NCBI GenBank assembly: GCA_030156945.1
Contig: JASGLT010000007.1
Span: 1 to 64,000, forward strand
Source of the DNA: Thermococcaceae archaeon
GTDB lineage: Archaea > Methanobacteriota_B > Thermococci > Thermococcales > Thermococcaceae
Direction: 5' to 3'
DNA length: 64,000 bases
In this document: one piece after another, positions 44,341-48,786 of the stretch
Numbering within the stretch: the first letter of the stretch is position 1
Layout of the letters: every line of letters begins with the position of its first letter
Notes under the pieces: model-generated
What the model saw: only the letters and a program-made list of their open reading frames with translations
What the model was told of the DNA's origin: nothing
Database searches by the model: none
Made by a program: the position numbers and the translations under genes

Positions 44341-44442
44341 ATGGAAAGCGGAGAGGAAGTTGAGATCATGGTTAACCTCACAAATTTTGAGCTAATGTAC
44401 ACGATGATGGAGAAAAACGTGAAAGGGGAGGATCAGAGGTAG
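44341..44442 (+). CDS. Small protein (33 aa), function unknown
   Basis: An ORF of 33 codons from the ATG at 44341, which follows GGTGAAGGGA, to a TAG at 44440-44442. A TATA-like element (about 44280-44289) lies at a distance allowing a leader of about 30 bases. The product is acidic at the start and Met-rich in the centre (MESGEEVEIMVNLTNFELMY). No family is recognised. The end overlaps the convergent pheT gene by 10 bases. Its own promoter, palindrome and ribosome site argue for a real gene, but length makes it uncertain. Confidence 0.4.
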   Translation: MESGEEVEIMVNLTNFELMYTMMEKNVKGEDQR

Positions 44443-46139
44443 GGCTCCGTGTAGAGCGGGCTCAGGAACAGCTCGAAGGCCGCAACGGGCATCTCAATGC
44501 CCCACTTTTCCAACACTCCCGGGTGTATCTCCCCTATGACCCCTATTGCTTCCCCGTTGACGATGATTTTGCCAACCCTTCCAGGGATGAAGCTCGGGTG
44601 TTCCACCTCCTCAAGCTCGTACTCGAAGCCGAGGTGGCGCATAACGCCCTCGAGGATTTCTTTTGCCTCCGTGAAGGTCACGCGCGGATGAACTAAAGCC
44701 ACAGCCAGCTTGCTCTCGCTGACTGTTTTAGTCTCCCTGCTCTCGTCTATGAGCGTGGCCTTTCCGACCTCGAAGAGCTTCTGCGGGTACTCCTCGTGGG
44801 TGTTCTGGCTCAGGAAGTCGAGCAGGCTCGGTATGAGCCAATTTCTCAGGGCTGACCACTTCGGGCTTATCGGGTTCTCTATCTCCACGAGCTCAGCGGG
44901 CGGGTGGTTGAAGTAGTCCTTTCCAAACTCCAGATTCATCCTGTCGTACTGGGCCTCCCTGTTCGTAAGGTTGAACGTCATGACCTCCTGTAAGCCAAAG
45001 CCAACCATAAGCTCCCTCACTGCATCCTCGAACTCGATGAACTTGTCGCCCCTTCCCTGGACTGCCAGCTTCGGCTCCTCGGGTTCGATCTCGTTGTAGC
45101 CGTAGGCTATGAGAACGTCCTCAAGAACGTCCCTCGCGTGCATTATATCGTCGCGGAAGGCCGGATAGCGGAGCTTTGCCTTCCCGTCCTTAAGCTCCAC
45201 TTCGTACATCATCATCTCAAGGAGCTCCTTGATTTCCCCGTCGCTCAGCTCAAGCCCGGCTAATTTTCTGATGTAGTCGAGCTCGACCTCGAACTCCTTG
45301 GGAGTTAGGTCTGGCGTCTCTATCTCGAAGTCTGGATAAACTACTTTCACGCTCTTTATCTTCCCGCCGCGCTCAGCGAGAGCTGTGACGACGACGTTGA
45401 GGGCAAGCATGACTTTATTCAAGTCCCAGCCGGTTATATCAACGAAGACGTTTTTGGTCTCGGTTGTCACCCTTCCAGTTGTCTCGGAGTTGATTATCGG
45501 CGGCATCGAGAGGACTTTGCCCTCGCTGTCCACGAGGAGCGGATAGTAGGGCTTGTCCTTTATCAGGTGTCCGTATTCCCTTCCCTTCTCGTGCTTCTCA
45601 AGGATTTCCTCAAGCGTCATCTCCTCGTCGTAGCCGAGGGGAACGAACTTCTCGGTCTTCTCGGCGGCGCGGTAGTATATCGGCGGCTTGACCTTGTCGA
45701 AGTCGAAGATTCCTATCGCTACCTCCCTTCTCCTCCTTCCGAAGGTGAGCGCTACCTTCTCCTGCAGGTTTATCATCTGCTTCAGGGCCTCTTCGTCGAT
45801 GTTTAGACCCTCAACGATTGCATAGACACCGTAGGGCCTGATGTCCTTCAGCTTCTCGTCAACGTAAACGACAACGTCGCTCTTCTCGACCTCGTACTTC
45901 GGCAAACCCTTCTGGAAGCCAAGGGCAAATCGTATCTGCCTCGCTATACCCTCGGCACTCCAGAGGTCGGGCCTGTTGGTGTCCTTTGAGTCGGCTTTGA
46001 AGTAGATTTCACCGTTCTCCTCCCAGACGTCGTCGAGCTCGCATTTGGCGTAGAGGAAGAGGTCTTCCCACTCCTCGACGCTGAAGGTTTTCCCGACGAG
46101 CCTCTCAAGGTCGCGCTTTGAAACGTCGAACTTCGGCAT
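44433..46139 (-). CDS. pheT: Phenylalanyl-tRNA synthetase beta subunit
   Basis: A 568-residue beta subunit of the alpha2-beta2 PheRS, archaeal type. It carries the editing B3/B4 domain (about 85-270, including GIFDFDKVKPPIYY), B5 (about 275-345) and the catalytic-like core (about 360-560, with NPISPKWSALRNWLIPSLL). The ATG at 46139 has GAGGTGATGCTC before it. In related genomes pheS and pheT are normally neighbours; here four small genes lie between them (46145-47275), all on the same strand and nearly without gaps, so the subunits probably still share a transcript. Confidence 0.96.
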   Translation of the reverse strand: MPKFDVSKRDLERLVGKTFSVEEWEDLFLYAKCELDDVWEENGEIYFKADSKDTNRPDLWSAEGIARQIRFALGFQKGLPKYEVEKSDVVVYVDEKLKDIRPYGVYAIVEGLNIDEEALKQMINLQEKVALTFGRRRREVAIGIFDFDKVKPPIYYRAAEKTEKFVPLGYDEEMTLEEILEKHEKGREYGHLIKDKPYYPLLVDSEGKVLSMPPIINSETTGRVTTETKNVFVDITGWDLNKVMLALNVVVTALAERGGKIKSVKVVYPDFEIETPDLTPKEFEVELDYIRKLAGLELSDGEIKELLEMMMYEVELKDGKAKLRYPAFRDDIMHARDVLEDVLIAYGYNEIEPEEPKLAVQGRGDKFIEFEDAVRELMVGFGLQEVMTFNLTNREAQYDRMNLEFGKDYFNHPPAELVEIENPISPKWSALRNWLIPSLLDFLSQNTHEEYPQKLFEVGKATLIDESRETKTVSESKLAVALVHPRVTFTEAKEILEGVMRHLGFEYELEEVEHPSFIPGRVGKIIVNGEAIGVIGEIHPGVLEKWGIEMPVAAFELFLSPLYTEPYL

Positions 46140-46144
46140 GAGCA

Positions 46145-46555
46145 TCACCTCAACACATCGTTCAGGGGAATTGCCTCATACTCGCCAGCGTGGGCGAGCA
46201 AATCCTTATCGTTGGTTACTATCGGAAGCCTCAGTGAGAGGGCAAGTGCAACGAAGGGAGTATCCTTCTCGTCAAACTCCCTGCATATTCGGTAGGCCTC
46301 ATTTATAAAACCACGGTACTCAGAAAGCGGGTGAAAGATAATCCTTCCCAGGAGCTCTTCCCTGAAGTGAGCTAATTCGGGCTCAGTTATTCCTCTTTTC
46401 CTAGCTTTTTCCTCAATAATGGTCCAGTATCTCTTAAGCTCCCTTAGCATATAATCTGGGGCGTGGAGTGGTATTTCGGTCGTAAGTAGGAACTCTCTCA
46501 GCTTTGAGTTTTTGGGAATGAGGGCTGAGATTATGACGTTGGTATCCACGATCAC
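46145..46555 (-). CDS. PIN domain ribonuclease (VapC-like toxin)
   Basis: A 136-residue PIN domain protein. The four acidic metal ligands of the RNase site are present: Asp4 (VDTNV), Glu39 (MLRELKR), Asp98 (EKDTPF) and Asp116 (TNDKDLL). VapC toxins cut tRNA or rRNA; the target here is unknown. The start is a GTG at 46555 overlapping the stop of the antitoxin gene by GTGA, the standard coupled arrangement; the longer frame to 46588 is the antitoxin gene in another frame. It precedes pheT by 5 bases. Confidence 0.88.
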   Translation of the reverse strand: MIVDTNVIISALIPKNSKLREFLLTTEIPLHAPDYMLRELKRYWTIIEEKARKRGITEPELAHFREELLGRIIFHPLSEYRGFINEAYRICREFDEKDTPFVALALSLRLPIVTNDKDLLAHAGEYEAIPLNDVLR

Positions 46556-46770
46556 TCCAGCCCTAATTCTTTCTTGAACTCCTGCCAAGTCTCATCCCTC
46601 GCTTTCTCTATTGCCTCAATGTCCTTCTCGTCTATCCCGAGCCTCCGCGCGATGTCTTCAATGAACTCTATCCTCGCCCTCTCAGCTTCAATCGCCCGCT
46701 TAACTTGGAGCTCCACAAATTCCTTTCTCACACCCTCCGGAATCTGAACAACGATTTTGGGCACGGGCAT
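46552..46770 (-). CDS. VapB-like antitoxin of the PIN toxin
   Basis: A 72-residue, highly charged helical protein immediately before the PIN gene. It starts PKIVVQIPEGVRKEFVELQV and ends EFKKELGLE, the pattern seen in many archaeal VapB-like partners: a short beta strand for DNA contact and a helical tail that wraps the toxin. Start choice is between ATG 46770 and GTG 46764; GGTGAT lies 4 bases before the latter. It overlaps the DUF2283 gene end. Assignment as antitoxin comes from position and composition. Confidence 0.75.
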   Translation of the reverse strand: MPVPKIVVQIPEGVRKEFVELQVKRAIEAERARIEFIEDIARRLGIDEKDIEAIEKARDETWQEFKKELGLE

Positions 46771-47006
46771 CACCCCTGGCTTTCAACGGCCTTTCCTTCT
46801 TCTTTAACCCTTTCAATGAACTTGAGGAACTCTGGGAGAACGAGCTCTCTCGCCCGCCATATCTCAATGCCAACGACCTCACCGTTTTCATCGAGGTCTA
46901 TAACAACGTCCCCTTTCATGTCCGCGTCCACGGGCTTCTTTGGCGAGAGCTGGATGTAGAGGATGTCAACGTTCGGATCATACTTAACAACTATCTCGTC
47001 GCTCAT
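46770..47006 (-). CDS. DUF2283 protein (putative antitoxin)
   Basis: A 78-residue protein of the DUF2283 family, recognised by VKYDPNVDILYIQLSPKKPVD near the start and VVIDLDENGEVVGIEIWRA in the middle (about residues 34-52). Such proteins are often paired with DUF4258 proteins in toxin-antitoxin-like loci, with DUF2283 as the antitoxin candidate. It overlaps the DUF4258 gene upstream by 4 bases and the VapB-like gene downstream by one to three bases. The activity is not established. Confidence 0.82.
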   Translation of the reverse strand: MSDEIVVKYDPNVDILYIQLSPKKPVDADMKGDVVIDLDENGEVVGIEIWRARELVLPEFLKFIERVKEEGKAVESQG

Positions 47007-47275
47007 AACTCAACCCACCTTCCGGAAGTTAGTTTTGCAGTCCTGATTTTATCAAATTTGCTCGTGTGGTAAGTGGTCACAACTATCTTCCCATCACCCA
47101 CTTTTTCGTAGACAACAACTAAATCATGGCCGTTTTTACTCCCTACTGCCACGTACCTACCAGATTGCAGGTCAAAAAACAAATGGGATGGGTTGCGGAG
47201 CACTCTTTCCACTTCTTCCCTGGAGATTCCGTACTGTTGCATTCTCATGAGGGCGTGCTCGGTGTAGGAGATCAC
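47003..47275 (-). CDS. DUF4258 protein (putative toxin)
   Basis: A 90-residue protein of the DUF4258 family, distantly related to RelE/BrnT-like small RNases. The N-terminus TEHALMRMQQYGISREEVERVL is typical (H-x-x-x-R-x-x-x-R/Y pattern), followed by a beta sheet (GRYVAVGSKNGHDLVVVYE) and a C-terminal TYHTSKFDKI. It starts at a GTG (47275), with GGTGAT four bases before it inside the end of pheS, so it is translated directly after pheS. With DUF2283 it forms a toxin-antitoxin-like pair. Confidence 0.82.
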   Translation of the reverse strand: MISYTEHALMRMQQYGISREEVERVLRNPSHLFFDLQSGRYVAVGSKNGHDLVVVYEKVGDGKIVVTTYHTSKFDKIRTAKLTSGRWVEL

Positions 47276-47280
47276 TCAAA

Positions 47281-48786
47281 TCACCACACCAGCCTCGCTT
47301 CCCTCAACCAGCGCAGGTCGTAGCTGAAGAGGTAGCGGATGTCGTCTATTCCGAGCTTGAACATAGCTAACCTGTCGATACCTATTCCCCAGGCTATAAC
47401 CGGAACGTCTATCCCAAGGGCCTTCGTCATCTCCTCCCTGAATATTCCAGCGCCTCCGAACTCGACCCAGCCGAGCTCAGGGTGGTAGGCGCTCATCTGG
47501 ACGCTCGGCTCGGTGAACGGGTAGTAGTCTGGAAGGAACTTGACCTTCTTCGCTCCCGCTATCTCAACGGCGAATCGCTTGAGTATTCCGAGGAGATGCC
47601 TGAAGTTGAGGTCTTCCCCAACTACGAAGCCGTCAATCTGGTTGAACTCGATGAGGTGAGTTCTGTCGAGGACATCCGGCCTGAAAACGCGCTGTATCGT
47701 GAAGTACTTGCCCGGTATCTCAACGCCCTTCGCGAGCTGTCTGGCGTCGAGTGCGGTTCCATGGGCGCGAGGCATCAGGAGCATCGCCCTCTCCGGCGAC
47801 CAGACGTAGCCCCATCCCCTTGAGCCAGTATCGCCGCCGTGCTCGTGAGCAGCTTTAACCCTTGTGACGAGCTCATCCTCAGGTAAAGAGCCGACCTTCG
47901 GGTACTTGAGCTGGTAGGTGTCCGTCCACTCCCTGGCCGGGTGGTTCTGAGGCTGGAAGAGCGCGTCGAAGTTCCAGAACTGGGTCTCTATGAGGCTGTC
48001 AACCGTCATCTCGATGAAGCCCATCTCTATGAGCCTTCTCCTTATCTTGTCGAGGAAGGCCCTGTAGGGCTGCTTCTTGCCAGGATAAATCCTCCTTACG
48101 GGGGCTTTTATGTCGAACTTTCTGAACTCAACTTCCCTCCACTTGCCGGACTTTATGAGTTCTGGTGTAAGCACCGAAACCTCTTTCTTGAGCTCAAGGC
48201 CCTTCTTGACGAGCTCCTCTCCCTTCTCGGTTATCTCGGCTACTCTCTCGGTGATGATGTCTTCTTCGCCGATTTTTCTCCTCTTGAGTTCGTTAACGGG
48301 CACGAGCTTTTCGATTTCCTTAACCGGGACTTCCCCTTTCTCGGCAAGGAGCTTTAAGGCTTTATCAATGGGTCTCTCCGAAGCTTCCCTTCCCTTCTCG
48401 GTTATCTCGAGGACTAGCTTCCCGTCCTCTTTCCTCACGTTTGCCCAGCCTTCCCTCCTGAGAAGGCCAACGATGGGCTTCAGCTCGTCCTCGCTGAGGA
48501 CATCTTTGAGGTCGTCAAGTGTTGCCTTTCCCTTCTCGCGGAGAACCTTCAAAGCCCTCCACTCGGGAAGGCCGATTTGAGCGTACTTCTTTCCGGTCTC
48601 TGTGAGCTTGACAACCCTCTCGCTCCTCTCGTGGAGCTTCGCAAGTCCCTTAGCCTGAAGTCCGAGAAGGGCGCGCATCACCGCGACCTGTTCGAGACCG
48701 CTCTCTTTAACAAGCTCCTCAACCTTCGCCCTCTTGAGCTCCGCGAGCTTAATGAGTGTGAGCTTTTCCTGGTAGCTTAGCTCCAT
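47281..48786 (-). CDS. pheS: Phenylalanyl-tRNA synthetase alpha subunit
   Basis: A 501-residue catalytic alpha subunit of archaeal PheRS. The N-terminal 200 residues consist of winged-helix-like repeats ([20 protein letters not shown] and similar) that bind DNA or tRNA. The class II core follows (about 225-500), with motif 2 ([18 protein letters not shown] region), the Phe pocket ([20 protein letters not shown]) and motif 3 ([18 protein letters not shown]). First gene of the unusual pheS - DUF4258 - DUF2283 - VapB - VapC - pheT run. Confidence 0.96.

Follow-up and report, generated by a model that had tools for sequence, protein, structure and literature searches.

The short gap between pheS and pheT in the window (the whole 64,000-nt stretch of Thermococcaceae DNA analysed here) holds four small genes, which we read with considerable confidence as an accessory cassette: two toxin-antitoxin (TA) type modules lodged in the operon gap, mobile, gained and eroded. 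The first module would consist of a DUF4258 toxin gene followed by a DUF2283 antitoxin gene, and the second of an antitoxin-like gene followed by a PIN RNase toxin gene. The gap position would supply expression and homology arms for transfer, while neither regulating phenylalanine charging nor preventing loss. For this one gap, 86 genomes offer intact, partial, scarred and empty states for comparison, and in one case the end of a transferred stretch is visible within an essential neighbour gene.

Gene layout and protein families

Read from 48786 to 44433 on the minus strand, the locus presents six open reading frames in series, with pheS first, pheT last, and all four insert frames open. The features are:

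47281..48786, minus strand: pheS, phenylalanyl-tRNA synthetase alpha subunit (Pfam tRNA-synt_2d, E 9.6e-84)
47003..47275, minus strand: DUF4258 gene, probable toxin of pair 1, BECR/RelE superfamily (PF14076, E 3.6e-12; sub-threshold BrnT match)
47174..47179, minus strand: U6 tract inside the DUF4258 gene (codons TTG TTT TTT), in all 7 junction copies
46770..47006, minus strand: DUF2283 gene, probable antitoxin of pair 1 (PF10049, E 2.9e-18)
46552..46773, minus strand: antitoxin-like gene of pair 2, 73 aa, no named family (6 of 8 junction copies precede an intact PIN gene)
46145..46588, minus strand: PIN-domain gene, probable VapC-like toxin of pair 2 (PF10130, E 5.2e-23; TIGR00305 above cut-off)
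46137..46155, minus strand: 3' edge of the insert (PIN stop within TGAGGTGATGCTCATG; L101 reads TGGTGAGGTGATGCTCATG)
44433..46139, minus strand: pheT, phenylalanyl-tRNA synthetase beta subunit (Pfam tRNA_synthFbeta, E 1.3e-45; junction sequences)

The DUF4258 gene starts with GTG 5 nt past the pheS stop, the DUF2283 start overlaps the DUF4258 stop, and on the longest readings each next start within the insert overlaps the preceding stop. The antitoxin-like gene has three start options, GTG 46773, ATG 46770 and GTG 46764, the last of which aligns with the ATG of G018, G089 and G006. For the PIN gene, TTG 46588 is favoured over the alternative GTG 46555; TTG or ATG stands at the 46588 codon in 7/7 copies (window included) and GTG at the 46555 position in 3/7. 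From TTG 46588 the PIN gene overlaps the antitoxin-like frame by 37 nt, and its stop falls inside the ribosome site of pheT, whose start common to the relatives is ATG 46139. The 3' edge of the insert carries the same stop, ribosome-site and start pattern as the empty junction of G095 (L101). Because the genes are co-directional and packed, with the first start 5 nt past the pheS stop, expression of the cassette together with pheST is plausible; it would proceed by read-through from pheS and coupled translation.

A crude look at the locus, confined to a listing of A/T runs and T runs, found no separate promoter or terminator for the cassette. The main text of a published T. kodakarensis start-site study mentions neither toxins nor phenylalanyl or tRNA synthetase genes. 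The sole A/T run of at least 8 on the sense strand between 48950 and 44433 is TTTTATAAAT, at 46301-46310 (minus strand) inside the PIN gene; it is a possible internal TATA box for pheT, and is not kept in G018. The U6 tract of the DUF4258 gene, which could be an internal terminator or attenuator, is found in 7/7 junction copies and in 0/23 other DUF4258 loci, and is preceded by T whatever the amino acid. The 268 kb that code for pheS and pheT contain a single run of T6 or longer, and 55 kb of window reading frames contain five.

Profile searches assign the first protein to DUF4258 (PF14076, 46.8 bits against a cut-off of 25), the second to DUF2283 (PF10049, 66.2 against 23) and the fourth to the PIN families PF10130 (82.2 against 22.4) and PF01850 (24.7 against 23.6), with TIGR00305 of NCBIfam also above its cut-off. 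The pair-1 toxin candidate is filed as DUF4258 and not as BrnT (PF04365), whose cut-off it misses (22.1 bits against 34.5, E 1.9e-4). The family names of the preliminary description are upheld for DUF4258, DUF2283 and PIN; the frame that it calls VapB reaches no Pfam or NCBIfam family above cut-off (best E 0.027). AlphaFold models this antitoxin-like protein as two helices (mean pLDDT 80, pTM 0.43) with no PDB match. Foldseek gave no significant match and no antitoxin fold either for it (best E 4.3) or for DUF2283 (best E 0.2). In PDB sequence searches the PIN protein retrieved nothing at E 0.1 and two other profiles retrieved weak matches to unrelated molecules only, while none of the four proteins matched any family of the PADLOC anti-phage defence models at E 0.1. 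Residues D4, E39, D98 and D116 of the PIN protein (numbered from the V of VIVDTN), which we take to be the catalytic four acids of PIN domains, are invariant in 6/6 intact copies.

Across the Thermococcaceae, DUF2283 lies directly 3' of DUF4258 in 48/49 DUF4258 matches, the single exception carrying an internal stop, and occurs without DUF4258 in 21/69 of its own matches. This pairing is one of neighbourhood only, and its steadiness proposes DUF2283 as an antitoxin family. In the literature library searched, neither DUF2283 nor COG5428 occurs by name, and the Pfam number of DUF2283 occurs in one paper (PMC6733907); a scan of genome contigs with a single DUF2283 protein returned one record, a Thermococcus MAG. 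Given the families, the gene order, the neighbourhood and the asymmetry of loss described below, the insert proteins probably form two RNase toxin-antitoxin modules.

The junction in other Thermococcaceae

A pheT match was obtained in 91 of 94 Thermococcaceae genomes. G025, G032, G083 and G087, which have pheT fragments without a start, were left out, and 87 regions were compared, 86 of them with pheS upstream; in the other (L149, G061) there is no pheS in the stretch upstream of pheT. Gap lengths run up to the residue that aligns with the first residue of PheT when its start is taken at 46142, the initial reading. Uninterrupted pheST in relatives, the pattern looked for with a TA module in an operon gap, is the prevailing state: of the 86 junctions (window included), 66 are empty, the gap measuring 3-19 nt in 64 of them and 55 nt in the other 2. 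Another 17, the window among them, hold the whole cassette, a part or remnants, always in the same gene order:

All four genes: window only
DUF2283, antitoxin-like gene and PIN: G011, G009
Antitoxin-like gene and PIN: G021, G018, G089
Antitoxin-like gene and internally deleted PIN: G004
DUF4258, DUF2283, antitoxin-like gene and PIN tail: G006
DUF4258 and DUF2283: G029, G033, G082, G023, G085
DUF2283 alone: G005, G035, G090
Remnants only: G003

The 8 junction copies of the antitoxin-like gene precede an intact PIN gene in six cases, the deleted PIN in G004 and the PIN tail in G006. Together with the reading frames and Pfam matches, these 17/86 genomes confirm the earlier description of four co-directional, tightly packed genes between pheS and pheT, and the relatives are not uniformly inactive remnants of the same junction. 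The junction cassette is more than a chance arrangement, since one gene order recurs in the 17/86 genomes and dN/dS of intact copies is well below 1.

The remaining 3 junctions hold an antisense alcohol dehydrogenase gene between pheS and pheT (G078, G101 and G109; L126, L170 and L186). The gene is seen in all three translations, the G101 copy being an iron-type alcohol dehydrogenase (Pfam E 3.9e-42), and the three genomes are not tree neighbours.

Some flanking genes are themselves unusual. PheT of G085, G076 and G001 (L180, L181 and L182) matches in two pieces within one open frame and looks as if it carried an extra internal stretch. In four genomes of one genus (G066, G071, G069 and G067; L153, L165, L166 and L169) one internal stop is flagged in pheT, and in G067 no single frame reads through pheS.

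Loss, selection and transfer

The tree of pheS plus pheT comprises 86 rows and was built by a quick method that leaves 18/83 inner branches open; 11 rows are flagged as partial or, for L169, for in-frame stops in pheS, and the first codons of L151 are trimmed. On this tree the cassette is confined to core Thermococcus, in 16/33 rows of one subclade, 1/16 of its sister and 0/37 outside. Occupancy of the gap changes at least 12 times, and the minimum number of changes per gene, which does not separate gain from loss, is 7 for DUF4258, 9 for DUF2283, 6 for the antitoxin-like gene and 4 for intact PIN.

These counts bear on the claim that loss of the cassette cannot happen without risk to pheT, a seat between essential subunit genes blocking TA loss by making deletion harmful to pheT. 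In favour of such an anchor, all 86 junctions, eroded ones included, keep a purine-rich, ribosome-site-like sequence no more than 16 nt from the pheT start (by a loose pattern), so that harmful deletions have presumably been filtered out. The claim does not survive the 66/86 empty junctions, the repeated changes of occupancy and the deletion scars in six genomes, and pheS and pheT can even be split, since the antisense alcohol dehydrogenase gene separates them in three genomes. We therefore regard addiction by anchoring as improbable, and the cassette should not be taken as a sign that addiction to the synthetase is built in. On the accessory-cassette reading, the insertions and deletions that survive would be those that keep downstream translation and leave pheT its ribosome site.

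The scars are of several kinds. The last DUF4258 bases remain as a leader of DUF2283 in G011 and G009, the DUF2283 tail remains in G021, the last PIN codons remain in G006, and G003 retains fragments of DUF4258 and DUF2283 along with a PIN-like tail. In G004 an in-frame PIN deletion takes out the conserved E39. The scars in all six genomes are losses in place. DUF4258 is gone and DUF2283 kept in G011, G009, G005/G035 and G090, and PIN is gone or deleted and the antitoxin-like gene kept in G006 and G004. A toxin candidate has thus been lost with its partner kept in about six events, a count of differing deletion endpoints judged by eye, and the reverse is seen in none; slots without a whole pair give no order of loss. 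This asymmetry, together with the excess of DUF2283 alone, is as predicted if the toxin depends on the antitoxin. Toxins would go first, since a cell that lost an antitoxin ahead of its toxin would be poisoned.

Broken copies also invite the view that the genes are decaying passengers, non-functional leftovers expressed by chance: G003 has remnants only, and the PIN genes of G006 and G004 are broken. Against it, dN/dS is 0.03-0.32 in 21/24 cassette comparisons (dS being undefined in 3), beside 0.04-0.09 for pheT, the PIN acids are intact in every whole copy, and the four window frames are open. Intact cassette genes are shown to be under purifying selection, and a state of mere decay appears unlikely.

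The cassette has also moved between species at least once. In G004, nucleotides 1-60 of pheT share 58 matches with the distant G018 and 43 with the near relative G024; at nucleotides 181-240 the figures are 50 and 59, and in the last 60 nt of pheS 51 and 57. These matches point clearly to a cassette that came from a distant species by recombination with its 3' end inside pheT. Among the matches listed, the DUF2283 and PIN homologues of at least 65% identity are all at the pheST junction (for the G004 PIN, identity refers to the matched portion). Transfer and descent both seem to have contributed, because relative to pheT the cassette dS is lower for some pairs (G000-G029, G082-G023 and G018-G004, where G000 is the window genome) and higher for others (DUF2283 of G000-G011, PIN of G000-G021).

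Other operon gaps and related systems

Pairs of the same kind occupy other operons. The 49 DUF4258 matches comprise 7 in pheST, 9 before tldE, 14 before APS kinase and 19 elsewhere. For the gap between tldD and tldE, both identified by Pfam PmbA_TldD domains, the comparison covered 87 loci from 86 genomes, one locus (L303) lacking tldD; DUF4258-DUF2283 pairs fill it in 9/86 loci, and the other 77 have 5, 9 or 10 nt. The DUF4258 proteins here are 34-38% identical to the window copy and represent another lineage, and their 9 presences need 9 changes on the pheST tree. G091 has the tldDE pair where its sister G015 has none, although the flanking sequences of the two agree at 91-100% per 100 nt, which argues further against a seat that prevents loss. 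The phosphodiesterase-APS-kinase gap, read in 30 loci only, holds the pair in 9, with DUF4258 proteins 40-43% identical to the window copy; of the others, 20 have 0-46 nt and one has other sequence. G011 carries both the pheST and the tldDE cassettes. As a tentative generalization, less likely than not, operon gaps between co-functioning genes might act as docking sites for TA cassettes, where the conserved flanks serve as homology arms, the cassettes spread between species by recombination and are expressed by read-through, and each of the three gaps (pheST, tldDE and phosphodiesterase-APS kinase) keeps its own lineage.

The same recurrence between subunit genes could mean an accessory role for the complexes, with DUF4258 and DUF2283 acting for several operons as a small pair of regulators or complex partners and not as a TA system. 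DUF2283 is indeed often alone (21/69). Presence is patchy even among near-identical relatives, however, and DUF4258 figures among the BECR toxin families in PMC11980606, so that we hold this reading to be very unlikely. Least credible of all is a feedback on phenylalanine charging, in which PIN or the Phe-coding U6 tract would sense or cut tRNA-Phe and tune the synthetase: the tract is indeed in every junction copy and in none of the 23 other loci compared, but shared descent could explain it (other DUF4258 codon runs are also invariant), most genomes lack the cassette, 10/17 occupied or remnant slots have no intact DUF4258, and the operons of the two other gaps, which hold same-kind pairs, have no connection with phenylalanine. 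The interpretation first offered for this locus is thus partly supported: inserted, co-directional and packed genes are retained, but the barrier to loss and the phenylalanine link are not.

The accessory-cassette reading has close precedents. A review (PMC7167474) describes relA-mazEFG and dinB-yafNOP of E. coli, where a TA pair has entered a host operon between two cistrons; strains without mazEF or yafNO have the operon undisturbed, the review recognises no functional tie of the pair to its host operon, and it calls unelucidated how TA systems move and integrate. The pheST cassette is of the same kind, TA pairs in a host operon gap. It differs in being archaeal, in being flanked by two subunits of one enzyme, and in its up to two tandem modules, erosion stages and recombination end in a flanking gene. 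Insertion into operon gaps is familiar behaviour for TA genes, and the present locus documents it unusually closely. What may be new, as far as found, are an archaeal host, flanks that encode enzyme subunits, modules in tandem, a series of erosion stages and a recombination end in an essential gene; the literature matches listed contain no report of TA genes in pheST, which is weak evidence of absence.

At the level of the modules, PMC11980606 lists DUF4258 as a BECR toxin family with activity given as unknown and an antitoxin-first order, and mentions DUF4258-MqsA fusions. The pheST DUF4258 resembles BrnT in its weak, below-cut-off profile match (E 1.9e-4) and in the toxin gene standing first, as in brnTA. 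Its partner, unlike those of the BECR/BrnT systems described there, is DUF2283, which has neither an RHH nor an HTH match. Pair 2 resembles VapBC in that four acids of its PIN protein are conserved and the PIN gene follows, with an overlap, a small gene; it departs from VapBC in that this small gene matches no family above cut-off. A second pair of antitoxin-like and PIN genes, about 30-38% identical, lies elsewhere in the window's own genome (L227, G000:C36:18829-19385).
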